Shown piece after piece: positions 11,462-16,109 of a stretch of 64,000 nt of DNA. Source of the stretch: Candidatus Accumulibacter contiguus. GTDB lineage: Bacteria; Pseudomonadota; Gammaproteobacteria; Burkholderiales; Rhodocyclaceae. Made by a program: the position numbers and the translations under genes. Each line of letters begins with the position of its first letter. The first letter of the stretch is position 1. The DNA lies in assembly GCF_012940005.1 (NCBI RefSeq), contig NZ_SPMX01000022.1, positions 62,001 to 126,000 of the forward strand, in the 5' to 3' direction. Under the pieces are notes generated by a model that did not search any database, was not told the DNA's origin, and saw only the letters and a program-made list of their open reading frames with translations.

Positions 11462-14400
11462 ATGAATCACCTCGTCATCGGGCTGGGCGGCACCGGAGGA
11501 AAAATCATCCGGGCCCTGCGAAAGAGCCTGTACCAGGAATTCCGCGGCGACAAACTGGCCGACATCGGCATCGGCTACCTGTACGTCGATTCGTCCAGCG
11601 AAATGATGTCGATCGACGACCCCAGCTGGAAAACCCTGGGCACCTCGGTGCAGTTGCCCAAGGCCAGCCAGTTGCTGATTACCGATGCCAATCTCACCTC
11701 GCGGCTCGACAATCTCGACAGCTATCCGGGACTCAAGCACTGGCTGGGCAGCCCGCAGGAGTGGCGCGACATTCTCAACAGCATCGTCGGCGCCACGCTC
11801 GGTGGCCAGAAGCGCCGGCTGGGCCGCTTCCTGTTTGCCTGCAAGGCCGACAAATACCGCGAACAGCTGCAATCGCAGGTCAAATTGCTGCAGCAGAACG
11901 GCCAGACCGAAGTCACCTTCCATGTCGTGCTCGGCCTGGCCGGCGGCACCGGCAGCGGCAGCGTGATCGACGCAGTGGCACAGCTGCGGGATCTGTATCC
12001 CGACTCCAAGCGTTTCCGCATCCTGATCTACGCGCTGCTGCCCGACGCCTACCCGAACCCCAACTGGGACACCGGCAACTACCACGCCAACGGATTTGCC
12101 GCCCTGACCGAACTCAACGCCATGTCGGTGGGCGTCTATCAACCCTACGACGTCACCGGCGTGAAGGAGCGGCTGACGCTGAGCGACCCGTTCAACGGCT
12201 GCTTCGTCTTTGGCAACGAAAACGAGAACGGCTTGACGGTGGATGTGGACCGGGATGTGCCCGGCATCGTCGCTGACTTCCTGTATCAAAAGATCGTGAC
12301 CGCGAAGAACATCAACTGGGCCTCGCTCGACCGCATGGAGAACGCGGAGAATGGCGATGGCTCGCCGGAAACCGCTGCGCAGGGGCGCATTCCAGAGCGC
12401 TCCAAGCGTTTTCTGACGTTCGGCATCAAGCGGCTGGCCATTCCCGAAGAAGAGATCAGTGAATACCTGACCTACAGCTTTGCCCGACAGGCGGCGCTGC
12501 AGTTGCGCTTCAATCACTGGCAGGAGGCGTCCGGCTTCATCGAAGAACCGCGCAAGCAGGATTTTCACGAGTTTGTGCAGCAAAAGGAGACGCAGCTACG
12601 CTGGCTGCTGTCCGACGACCATCTGACGCTGGCGCTGGGCATCCTGCCGGAAGATGCCGCCAACAAGCGCTGGAAGTCTTTTACTGGCGAGTGGGAAGCC
12701 GTCATCCCCAACTTCAAGTCGCTGGTGCGCGAGCGCGAGCGCGCCACCTGGCTGGACGAACTCACCAAGTTGTGTGAGAAGCGTTATCAGGATGACTACC
12801 GCACGCTGGGCGTCCCCGGTTTCTACCGCACCAAGCTGAAAGCGCGCAAGGACATGGCGCGCGAGATCCGGGTGCGGATCGAGCAGGAACTGGTCAATGA
12901 ATGGAAGGTCGGCGCCAAGTCCGCCTGGGATGTATCCCGCCTGCTGATCGCGCTGAGCGAAAAACTGGACGAACGTCTGAAGGCCTGTGACGAACACATT
13001 GCGCGTGCGCGCCACGCAGAGGAAGAAGCGCAATCGCGCGTCCTCGGCAATGCACACAAATGGTCCAGCATGGGCCTGTTCTCCAAGCACCTGCTGGGAA
13101 CGCCGGACAGCCTGCTGGACGCGCATGGTGTGCATTTGCAGGAGATGTATGTGTACCGTACGCGCGCCGAAGGCTGGGGCTTTGCCAAAGCGCTGCTGAT
13201 CGAGGTGATCGCCGAAATCACCGACCTGAAAGGTGAAGTGGACCGGGCGGCCAACACCTTGCAGCAGGCCCTGAAGAAGTTCGATGTCGGTATCCAGGCG
13301 CGCCTTTCCGATACCGATGCAGGCGATTTGCGCCAGCACCTGATCCGCTTTTATGACCCCGTCCAGGTCAAGCAGATCAGCCGCCGGCTGGTGGTGGACG
13401 AAGCCGAACAGAAAACGCAGACCGGCCGGGTGCGTTCCGCCCTGGCCGAAAAGATTGGGCAGGATTCGACTTTTGCCCTGTTCAATCAGCGGGTGACGGA
13501 ATCGACCTTTCTCGATGTGCTCGAAACGGTGTGCGAGGACAACGCGCGCATCGCCCACCAGAACCTGGTGCAGAACCCCAAGGAGCGGCTGCTCGGCGTG
13601 TCGATCATCGACAAGTTGCGCGACCGCTACGGCGCCGACCCGCAGGAGTTGAAAAGCTACGTGAGCGAGCTGGTCAGCCGGGCAGGCAACTTCGTCACGC
13701 TGGAACCGCTGGAAATCCACCGGGCAGCGCCCGGCATTCCCGTGGGGGTACCCACGGCGGTGAGCAAATTCACCGTGATCCTGCCAAGAGCGCCTGAACA
13801 GGCCGAGTTTGCCCGGGGACTGAAGGAAGCACTGCGCGAAGCCAAAACCGGCGATGTGGAGATCATCGACTCGGATGGCCGGCGCAACGAAATCACGCTG
13901 GTCTCGATCACCAACCTGTTCCCGCTGCGCTACCTCAAGCCGCTCAAGTTCCTGGAAGAAAAATACCGCCGCCGCATCGAAACCGGCGGCGCGCGCGCGC
14001 GGCTCGAACTGCACACCGAGGGCGACGGCAATGCCTGGCCGCGGCTGTTCGTGGCCTCCAGCGCCGAGGTCAAGCAGCAGGCCCTGCCTTACGTGCTGCT
14101 GGCCAAGGCTCTGGGATTCATCCATGAAGGCAGGAATCCCGCCACCGGCGCGGAGGAAGTGCTGCTGCTCACCAAGGATGCCGACGGCTTAGACAACGAT
14201 CCGGTCCTCCTGGGCAAGAGCTTCACGGCCAGCGCCGACAGCATCAACCTGGAGAACCTGCACACCATCAAGTCGGTCTGCGACGCGACGCTGGCCGGTG
14301 CCGGCTACCTGCACCAGGACCGCCGCAGCGAGGTGCAGCGGGCCATCCTGAGCGAGGTCGAAGCCATCAAGGCCGCACGCGGCGGCAACATCCAGGATGA

Positions 14401-14467
14401 AACCTACCGCCGCTTTCTGGAGGCCGGCCGGCGTGCCCTGGCCATTCTCAAACGCGAAGTCGCCTGA
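11462..14467 (+). CDS. large tubulin/FtsZ-superfamily protein
   Basis: A 1001-aa soluble protein. The N-terminus LVIGLGGTGGKIIRAL (residues 4-19) and the tubulin signature AGGTGSGS (residues 160-167) mark a GTP-binding tubulin/FtsZ-type domain of the Tubulin_2 (tubulin-like) class. The remaining roughly 650 residues are mainly helical with no recognised catalytic motif. ATG at 11462, preceded by GAGGAA, is preferred over TTG 11441. Known families of this type have been proposed to act in membrane remodelling or as regulated conflict systems; that is inference here. The operon continues with a zinc-ribbon membrane protein and a TAXI binding protein. Confidence 0.8.
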   Translation: MNHLVIGLGGTGGKIIRALRKSLYQEFRGDKLADIGIGYLYVDSSSEMMSIDDPSWKTLGTSVQLPKASQLLITDANLTSRLDNLDSYPGLKHWLGSPQEWRDILNSIVGATLGGQKRRLGRFLFACKADKYREQLQSQVKLLQQNGQTEVTFHVVLGLAGGTGSGSVIDAVAQLRDLYPDSKRFRILIYALLPDAYPNPNWDTGNYHANGFAALTELNAMSVGVYQPYDVTGVKERLTLSDPFNGCFVFGNENENGLTVDVDRDVPGIVADFLYQKIVTAKNINWASLDRMENAENGDGSPETAAQGRIPERSKRFLTFGIKRLAIPEEEISEYLTYSFARQAALQLRFNHWQEASGFIEEPRKQDFHEFVQQKETQLRWLLSDDHLTLALGILPEDAANKRWKSFTGEWEAVIPNFKSLVRERERATWLDELTKLCEKRYQDDYRTLGVPGFYRTKLKARKDMAREIRVRIEQELVNEWKVGAKSAWDVSRLLIALSEKLDERLKACDEHIARARHAEEEAQSRVLGNAHKWSSMGLFSKHLLGTPDSLLDAHGVHLQEMYVYRTRAEGWGFAKALLIEVIAEITDLKGEVDRAANTLQQALKKFDVGIQARLSDTDAGDLRQHLIRFYDPVQVKQISRRLVVDEAEQKTQTGRVRSALAEKIGQDSTFALFNQRVTESTFLDVLETVCEDNARIAHQNLVQNPKERLLGVSIIDKLRDRYGADPQELKSYVSELVSRAGNFVTLEPLEIHRAAPGIPVGVPTAVSKFTVILPRAPEQAEFARGLKEALREAKTGDVEIIDSDGRRNEITLVSITNLFPLRYLKPLKFLEEKYRRRIETGGARARLELHTEGDGNAWPRLFVASSAEVKQQALPYVLLAKALGFIHEGRNPATGAEEVLLLTKDADGLDNDPVLLGKSFTASADSINLENLHTIKSVCDATLAGAGYLHQDRRSEVQRAILSEVEAIKAARGGNIQDETYRRFLEAGRRALAILKREVA

Positions 14468-14545
14468 TGCGCCCTGGTTGAGCAAGGCCAACAACCGATT
14501 CGCCGGTTTCTTCCACTTCCCAGAAAAACCAGGAGGAACTCCCCG

Positions 14546-14959: not shown

Positions 14960-14987
14960 CCCTGTTTTTCCTTTCCCGGTATTCGAC

Positions 14988-16109
14988 ATGAATAATTCAC
15001 ATGCCGCACGGCCTGCTGGCATCAAAACCCTGCTCGTCGGAATTTCGGCGGCCTTGTTGTCGATGGCTGCCGCTGCCGAAAGCATCGTCACCGGTGGCAA
15101 GACGGGTACCTATTACGCCATCGGCAGCAATTTGCGGGATTTCGTCAATCCAAGCCTGGAAGTGAAGGACTCCAAAGGTTCCTGGGCCAATGTGGAAGAC
15201 ATGAGCCAGACCCGGGGCGTCACGCTGGCGATTGTCCAGTCGGACGTATATTCCGCCTTCGTGCGGATGCGTGACGCCAGCGATGTCCCGCAGGCCACAC
15301 GCCGTGAATACGCACAACTGCTGGCCAACTTGCGGGTGTTCATGCCCTTGTACCAGGAAGAAATCCATTTCCTGGTTCGCAAGGACGAGCCCATCGAATT
15401 CATCCATCAGATCCGGGGAAAACCCATCTGGATGGACATGGAGAAAAGTGGCACCTACCTCACCGCCCTGAATGTGTACAGCAAACTTTTCCAGGAGCGT
15501 CCCAACGTCGTGCAGCCCTTCATCAACACCACGGCCACGGGCGAGGACGAAGGCACCAAACGACGCCGCTCGGCCTTGATGGCCTTGAGCGATCCGGCTT
15601 ATTACCAGGCCTATCCGAAGATCGACGTGCTGGTGCTGGTGGGAGGACAGCCGCTCAGCCTGCTGGAGAAAAATGTCCCGGCCAACCTCAAGCTGCTGAA
15701 ATTCGACCCGACACAGGCCAATTCGGACAAAATTCTGCAGGAATACCGGAAAGCTGAAATCAGGAAATCCAGCTACCCGCTGCTGAACATTGCCGAGAAT
15801 GGTTCTCCCTCGCTGGCCGTCGATTCCTACCTGATCACGGCCAATTTTGCAGATCCCCAGAGGAATCAGTTCATCAAGGATTTCGCTGGCCAGTTCTGCG
15901 AGAAATTCGCCGTGTTGCGGGACCGCGGGCACGCCAAATGGCGGTCACTGACCTGGCAACCCGGCTCCGCACTGCCGCCTCTGGCCGCAGGCTGGCAGTA
16001 CTCCGACAAAGTCAAGGAGCGCCTGGCCAACTGCCAGTCCGGCTCCGTTCCCAAACCCGGCCCGAGCGACTGCAGTCCGCAGGACCGGTTTTCAGGCCTC
16101 TGCAAGTAA
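14988..16109 (+). CDS. TAXI-family periplasmic solute-binding protein (orphan)
   Basis: A 373-aa protein with a Sec signal peptide (hydrophobic [17 protein letters not shown], cleavage near AAAAES) followed by the TAXI hallmark [16 protein letters not shown]. Later TAXI-like segments include [14 protein letters not shown] and [22 protein letters not shown] proteins normally feed a TRAP transporter DctQM permease, but no permease gene is present in the window. The C-terminal extension ends [13 protein letters not shown], shared with the zinc-ribbon protein. It lies 28 bp after that gene and 4 bp before bluB. Confidence 0.82.

Follow-up and report, generated by a model that had tools for sequence, protein, structure and literature searches.

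The closest described relatives of the genes reported here are the FtsZl1 proteins, a tubulin-superfamily group for which Makarova and Koonin proposed a role in membrane remodelling in 2010 and noted OmpA neighbours (PMC2875224). In that description, likeness to FtsZ and tubulin in the T6-H7 and C-terminal regions could not be identified, and a reviewer of the paper remarked that a periplasmic component of TRAP type adjoins the Polaromonas gene and suggested transport or signalling. Here we examine a gene of the same superfamily group, accompanied by genes for a zinc-ribbon membrane protein and a TAXI-type periplasmic binding protein, in a 64,000-nucleotide stretch (the window) of the Candidatus Accumulibacter contiguus genome, which comprises 5.0 Mb in 167 contigs. 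The published FtsZl1 tree includes proteins of Polaromonas and Methylacidiphilum, two genera shared with our survey (the comparison is one of genera, not of the individual proteins), and OmpA-type neighbours are common to both. In contrast to the 2010 description, the model presented here spans the whole of a split tubulin core, and the part of that paper covered here makes no mention of a zinc-ribbon linker or of an exchange of binding modules. The vWA, kinase or GTPase neighbours that are frequent, though not obligatory, beside FtsZl1 genes have no counterpart among the six window proteins that were scanned.

Tubulin domains joined to coiled coils or to helical domains likewise occur in the GTPase-centric conflict systems described by Kaur et al. 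in 2020 (PMC7159879), as do zinc ribbons and transmembrane segments; no match to the GAP1/DO-GTPase system was found among the six window proteins, using a library that may not hold these families. Synechocystis Sll0445 is also a Tubulin_2 protein, a likeness of family membership rather than of compared sequences, but its neighbours, sll0446 and sll0447, differ from those seen here. Its disruption impairs phototaxis and affects photosystem II electron transport (PMC9880817), and we found no other in vivo data on the Tubulin_2 family in the open PMC literature. The same literature, which includes the 2010 paper in part, yielded no report of a zinc-ribbon partner, of an exchange of modules, of the completed fold or of a cysteine tail common to two of the proteins. 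An earlier note, made from the letters of the window alone, had called the system undescribed. This is not fully supported: a TRAP-type component, like the FtsZl1 family itself and the OmpA neighbours, has been in print since 2010; what stands is that the ribbon partner, the exchange, the fold and the tail are unreported in the literature found.

Judged by its sequences, the gene set appears to extend the known FtsZl1/Tubulin_2 family, with a plausible mechanism. We read it as an envelope-spanning, ligand-responsive tubulin-type machine, a reading to which we give about even chances. Its computed parts are a tubulin-superfamily GTPase with conserved nucleotide-binding motifs and a linked ribbon/transmembrane protein that is conserved among relatives; the third gene is of TAXI type, and in relatives a PstS-like module fused to the linker takes its place. 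The three genes announced by the earlier note are indeed present in the window, as follows.

11462 to 14467, plus strand: gene for a Tubulin_2/FtsZl1-type GTPase of 1001 amino acids (PF13809 match, AlphaFold2 model, structural alignment)
14546 to 14959, plus strand: gene for a zinc-ribbon single-pass membrane protein of 137 amino acids, the probable linker, with the C-terminal end CSPADERAGLCRSAP (conserved cysteines, hydropathy, tail)
14988 to 16109, plus strand: gene for a TAXI-type periplasmic binding protein of 373 amino acids with a C-terminal extension (PF16868 match, AlphaFold2 model, ligand-site positions)

The 1001-residue protein matches Tubulin_2 (PF13809) over residues 4-344 with E = 4.9e-78 and 263.3 bits (cut-off 27). 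Both of its glycine motifs were located, GLGGTGG at residues 7-13 and AGGTGSGS at residues 160-167, the latter containing the GTP-binding loop GGGTG(S/T)G as AGGTGSG (160-166), with alanine for the first glycine. This alanine, A160, is present in 78 of 79 aligned rows, G161, G164 and G166 in all 79, and G9, G10, G12 and G13 in 77 (the other two being gaps). E303 and R313 are also invariant in the 79 rows and E296 is found in 78; by the order of elements, this stretch would be where the T7 region falls. An AlphaFold2 model built from 77 rows has a mean predicted local distance difference test score (pLDDT) of 90.6 and a predicted template modelling score of 0.80, and its best 50 Foldseek rows in the PDB are CetZ, tubulin, BtubA, FtsZ and TubZ chains (top E = 1.7e-6). 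Alignment to CetZ (3zid_A) with VIA-align 2 gave Z = 26.7 and a root-mean-square deviation of 3.7 over 304 aligned residues, ranging over residues 1-845 of the model and 2-345 of the 360 in the chain; among the best 50 rows, the cores of CetZ, tubulin, BtubAB and TubZ score between Z = 23.5 and 26.7. These tubulin-core alignments reach residues 840-867, and the model has strands at 767-775, 799-804 and 810-820 together with helices. Thus, the predicted fold looks complete yet split by a helical insertion: a C-terminal tubulin domain would lie at about 765-850, and a mostly helical insertion of some 400 residues at about 350-760. The extended coiled coil described for the middle of FtsZl1 proteins may have a counterpart here: long helices are modelled at 488-535 and 547-613, and a match to a coiled-coil lamin covers 493-632. 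The family profile found no solved family structure in the PDB, its best tubulin match being E = 0.059 and its top match a coiled-coil lamin (E = 0.0011). Both the profile match and the alignment to the CetZ core bear out the earlier assignment of this protein to the tubulin/FtsZ-type GTPases.

Recurrence was surveyed at 82 loci, given here by L numbers, all of which were recovered through the tubulin gene in a search seeded with the subfamily of the window. The search retained 80 of 87 confirmed relatives and dropped seven. The loci include near-duplicates (for example, L044/L047 and L076/L077), and seven were left out: L001-L003 and L006-L008, whose places are counted under other identifiers, and L005, a distant plasmid locus. 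Genes were called by a script that got at least one of them wrong (in L041, where the gene was then set right by hand). A TAXI homologue was detected with phmmer in 12 of the 82 loci, the window included, and always as the second gene past the tubulin gene; isolates such as Polaromonas glacialis R3-9 and Plasticicumulans lactativorans DSM 25287 are among the sources. Two genomes beyond these 12 loci have the same tubulin-linker-TAXI order, giving 14 distinct places, and the gene set is therefore real and recurrent, co-occurring elsewhere as its proposal from a single locus required. Within the genus of the window, 5 of 28 genomes carry the tubulin gene, that of the window included, and in each of the remaining four it adjoins a linker match and a TAXI match. 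Two of these four loci are probably L012 and L041, and one has diverged (tubulin 57% and TAXI 38% identity) and lies in different surroundings. The closest tubulin-like relative in the survey, at 98%, is from Candidatus Accumulibacter vicinus. Further afield, the tubulin gene was found in 1 of 150 genomes of the order, which is the window's own, and in 3 of 369 of the class, again counting its own.

The most constant companion of the tubulin gene is the linker. We aligned 78 candidate linkers, a set that is without L041, L054, L074 and L088 and takes in a few genes lacking the ribbon; at least 90% of the rows retain C11, C17, C36 and C39. A hydrophobic stretch, assigned as a transmembrane (TM) segment by hydropathy, begins at about residue 52 of the 137-residue protein. 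We scored as a ribbon gene any gene within two genes of the tubulin gene whose product has a hydrophobic stretch and, close to its N-terminus, four cysteines. A gene of this kind is present in 67 of the 82 loci, 66 by script and L041 through its hand-corrected gene (L043 is counted through a probably wrong upstream gene; the gene that follows has the ribbon by eye), and in 59 of the 67 it lies immediately downstream on the same strand. It is upstream on the other strand in L023, L026, L028 and L084. As a control, 1 of 653 genes more than four genes away from the tubulin gene fits the same description. Nine of the other 15 loci have the whole or most of the ribbon by eye but differ in spacing or score weakly for the TM segment, only the remainder of the protein is present in L053 and L071, the stretches of L054 and L074 end there, and in L039 and L066 no ribbon gene was seen by eye near the tubulin gene. 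The link between ribbon/TM protein and tubulin gene is found in Pseudomonadota, Verrucomicrobiota, Acidobacteriota, Chlorobiota and others.

Domains found among the 78 candidate linkers are PBP_like_2 (22), OmpA (22), TPR_1 (14) and FGE-sulfatase (5). The fusion protein of L016, which like that of L014 contains both PstS-like (PBP) and OmpA domains, has homologues in 22 of the 82 loci, with the ribbon present in 21 of these. Since OmpA and binding-protein domains function outside the cytoplasm, these PBP-OmpA fusions provide the strongest evidence on topology: the arrangement of cytoplasmic GTPase, membrane linker and periplasmic binder that the earlier note had put forward finds support in relatives that combine ribbon, TM segment, PstS-like domain and OmpA domain in one polypeptide. 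A rival reading is inside-out control, in which a tubulin-like polymer would position or pull periplasmic, peptidoglycan-bound modules and the binding protein would be cargo, not sensor. OmpA domains bind peptidoglycan, and linkers that bear modules as diverse as PBP-OmpA, TPR and FGE-sulfatase are what one would expect of a general adaptor; however, four invariant ligand-site positions in the TAXI proteins (below) favour ligand binding, and we find inside-out control quite improbable.

The ligand-responsive reading gains from signs that the outer module has been exchanged. The tubulin-like protein of L014 is 80% identical to that of the window, yet its linker is of the PBP-OmpA form. We built a tree of 29 tubulin-like proteins, picked around the TAXI and PBP-OmpA groups from a larger tree of 80 rows whose deepest splits are weak and in which long branches come together. 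L014 and ten TAXI loci form one group of 11 rows (support 100/100), the ten TAXI loci alone are supported at 89/96, and two TAXI rows, L017 and L021, stand apart. A single clade of all 12 TAXI rows was rejected by the approximately unbiased (AU) test (p-AU 0.0038), a test weakened by the choice of its group after the larger tree had been seen and by the unusual letter make-up of L017 and L021. In its ribbon/TM part, the L014 linker is 49-60% identical to the ten near TAXI loci, 45% to L017 and 38% to L021, and 33-47% identical to 12 of the other 21 PBP-OmpA linkers; such values would be predicted from an exchange of the outer module that left the ribbon conserved, the ranges being close. Given that the ribbon is fused to PstS-like and OmpA domains in 21 of the 82 loci, TAXI appears to be one of a number of outer modules that can be swapped.

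A short segment with two cysteines forms the C-terminal end of the linker and of the TAXI protein alike. The pattern, which was composed after the tails had been seen, is present in 12 of 12 TAXI proteins and 10 of 12 of their linkers (the remaining two have a longer spacing by eye), as against 0 of 69 other immediately downstream proteins and 2 of 1292 genes outside the pairs, the 69 included. Two additional loci have a twin-cysteine tail by eye. The fused protein of L014 is without such a tail, its sole cysteines being the four of the ribbon. We propose that the tail may couple linker and TAXI protein when the two are not fused.

The TAXI protein matches NMT1_3 (PF16868) with E = 1.4e-13 and 51.5 bits (cut-off 27), over residues 34-169 only, and scores 54.5 bits against TIGR02122, under the cut-off of 84.35; a hydrophobic N-terminus is visible by eye. 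The top Foldseek matches of its model are TAXI binding proteins, several of them glutamate-bound, with 9ibo (E = 6.1e-14), 4ddd and 1us4 as the best. Positions of VcGluP, a TAXI protein of the TRAP transporters (PMC11574862), were mapped through the 8s4j alignment with a numbering offset of 28 taken from the S40-Y46 stretch; residue numbers here are those of a 374-residue query that starts one codon early. VcGluP Y45, S75, Q93 and E125 correspond to Y43, S66, Q85 and E125, each invariant in 12 of 12 TAXI proteins, and G156 is likewise kept. Y45 and Q93 are key residues of VcGluP (PMC11574862). Shared with VcGluP are the TAXI fold and four aligned glutamate-contacting side-chain positions, and a ligand resembling glutamate may be taken as a sensible starting guess and nothing firmer. 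Unlike the VcGluP type, the protein has a C-terminal cysteine tail, a linked tubulin-like gene and no TRAP permease among its scanned neighbours, the permease being absent as the earlier note had it; the following genes encode BluB, CHAT and DUF3617 proteins. Alternatively, the TAXI protein could aid solute uptake by serving a transporter encoded elsewhere, with the tubulin-like protein organising membrane transport machinery. Where no TRAP permease is present, a TAXI protein can work with another transporter, as has been suggested for Bordetella TAXI-GltS (PMC12344293), and the 2010 reviewer's suggestion included transport (PMC2875224). However, no transporter family matched among the six plus-strand window proteins scanned, the PBP-OmpA form belongs to the linker itself, and TAXI adjoins tubulin and linker in all 14 places (all found via the tubulin gene; TAXI elsewhere was not searched), so that we regard an uptake role as distinctly unlikely. 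Elsewhere in the same genome, at G000:C96:205549-205854 (L090), there is a second, weak TAXI-like frame (36% over residues 17-130, E = 8e-5).

For the envelope-spanning machine, we envisage the following mechanism. The ribbon would dock in the cytoplasm onto the tubulin-like protein, anchoring the protein or its polymer at the inner membrane, while the periplasmic TAXI protein would bind L-glutamate or a similar small acid and touch the linker, perhaps via the common twin-cysteine tail. Ligand state would then change assembly or GTP hydrolysis of the tubulin-like protein, like a receptor acting on a cytoskeletal element, and the output might be membrane or envelope remodelling or the local recruitment of other proteins. 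The zinc-ribbon TM protein is thus a concrete candidate for the missing connection, with the PBP-OmpA fusions suggesting the topology, and a cytoskeleton-like protein may in this way respond to the surroundings of the cell. If true, a tubulin would be controlled from beyond the inner membrane, and three proteins and a candidate ligand suffice for testing. More tentatively, we consider it possible that there is a whole class of receptor-controlled tubulins, in which interchangeable TAXI or PstS-OmpA modules set cytoplasmic tubulin assembly via a conserved zinc-ribbon TM adaptor.

Several points weigh against this mechanism, beginning with the two weaknesses of the AU test and the after-the-fact cysteine pattern mentioned above. 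No TAXI homologue is present in 70 of the 82 loci, so TAXI is not essential to the core. The AlphaFold2 model of the window TAXI protein is of moderate quality (pLDDT 73.4), and the other four models reach 47-61. Three VcGluP contact positions, S40, H123 and D157, are not kept but are G, Y and T/S/A in the TAXI proteins here, and Y46 is replaced by F in 3 of the 12. Similarity to solved TAXI sequences is mainly in the first lobe (six of seven matches), with Y200, M201 and G203 lying outside it. The ribbon protein has no Pfam family above the cut-off. Finally, the survey has no bearing on other Tubulin_2 groups, and the Thermaceae loci L005, L091 and L092, which stand outside our counts, lie near vWA and BrxL genes, with no ribbon gene annotated.

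Other forms of neighbourhood recur around the tubulin gene. In 22 of the 82 loci (L004 counted), the tubulin gene is preceded, at a distance of one or two genes, by a homologue of a caspase-like protein of L004 (Peptidase_C14, E = 1.7e-15), in most cases together with a DUF4384 protein; L062 adds a short, weak 23rd match. At L004 (9602-16498) and in its relatives, the recurrent proteins are caspase-like, DUF4384, tubulin-like, ribbon-TM-TPR and a small secreted-looking protein. Homologues of a vWA protein of L068 occur in nine loci with an ABC-ATPase gene adjoining; in L045 and L051 the vWA/ABC-ATPase pair lies at least seven genes from the tubulin gene. These variable caspase and vWA forms indicate that tubulin and linker are the core and that the rest varies. 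L039 (about 9995-15609) encodes a 1360-residue tubulin-like protein, with no zinc-ribbon gene nearby, and then a TIR/AAA protein.

Caspase-like neighbours raise the question of a conflict or programmed-death module, in which the tubulin-like protein would react to infection or damage and the extracytoplasmic parts would be triggers or effectors. Apart from these neighbours, such a module would fit the CHAT-domain protein encoded in the window at 17012-22363, the TIR/AAA gene adjoining in L039, the patchy distribution across order, class and genus, and the other tubulin genes in predicted conflict systems (PMC7159879). On the other hand, no homologue of the L004 caspase was found in the examined stretches of the 12 TAXI loci, the CHAT protein is confined to the window among the 82 loci and is missing from the four same-genus loci, and PADLOC returned no match for the three proteins. 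We consider a conflict role unlikely.

The gene that follows the TAXI gene in the window is:

16114 to 16869, plus strand: bluB (5,6-dimethylbenzimidazole synthase), probably outside the system (TIGR02476, 280.9 bits)

Its start lies four bases past the TAXI stop, and the transcript of the tubulin, linker and TAXI genes may extend into it. On the family scan, bluB is followed by the gene for a 1783-residue CHAT/hydrolase protein and that for a DUF3617 protein. The 1783-residue protein has DUF7379 and alpha/beta-hydrolase-type matches, a CHAT domain and TPR-S. Both BluB and the CHAT protein were considered as further components and rejected, BluB because no homologue of it turned up at any of the other 81 loci or at the four from the same genus, the CHAT protein on the distribution already given. 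A cobalamin riboswitch lies upstream of the tubulin-like gene on the opposite strand (11046-11253), where the upstream genes read by eye as cobalamin genes. The operon's own promoter, also claimed by the earlier note, is not borne out: one sigma-70-like match was found upstream (11288-11317), against a mean of 1.0 in shuffled sequences, which is no excess. A phage origin was rejected, with no phage match and none in one viral_contigs scan using a single protein as the query; four plasmid records match, three of them weakly. In the Thermaceae plasmids (L005, L091 and L092), a distant Tubulin_2 gene has a vWA gene on one side and a hypothetical gene on the other, with brxL coming after the hypothetical gene (in L091 beyond an intervening transposase), and this cluster looks like a defence-type one. 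Within the window, one 537-residue frame at 8292-9905 reads by eye as two joined ABC-type transport proteins, perhaps through a frameshift or a fusion.

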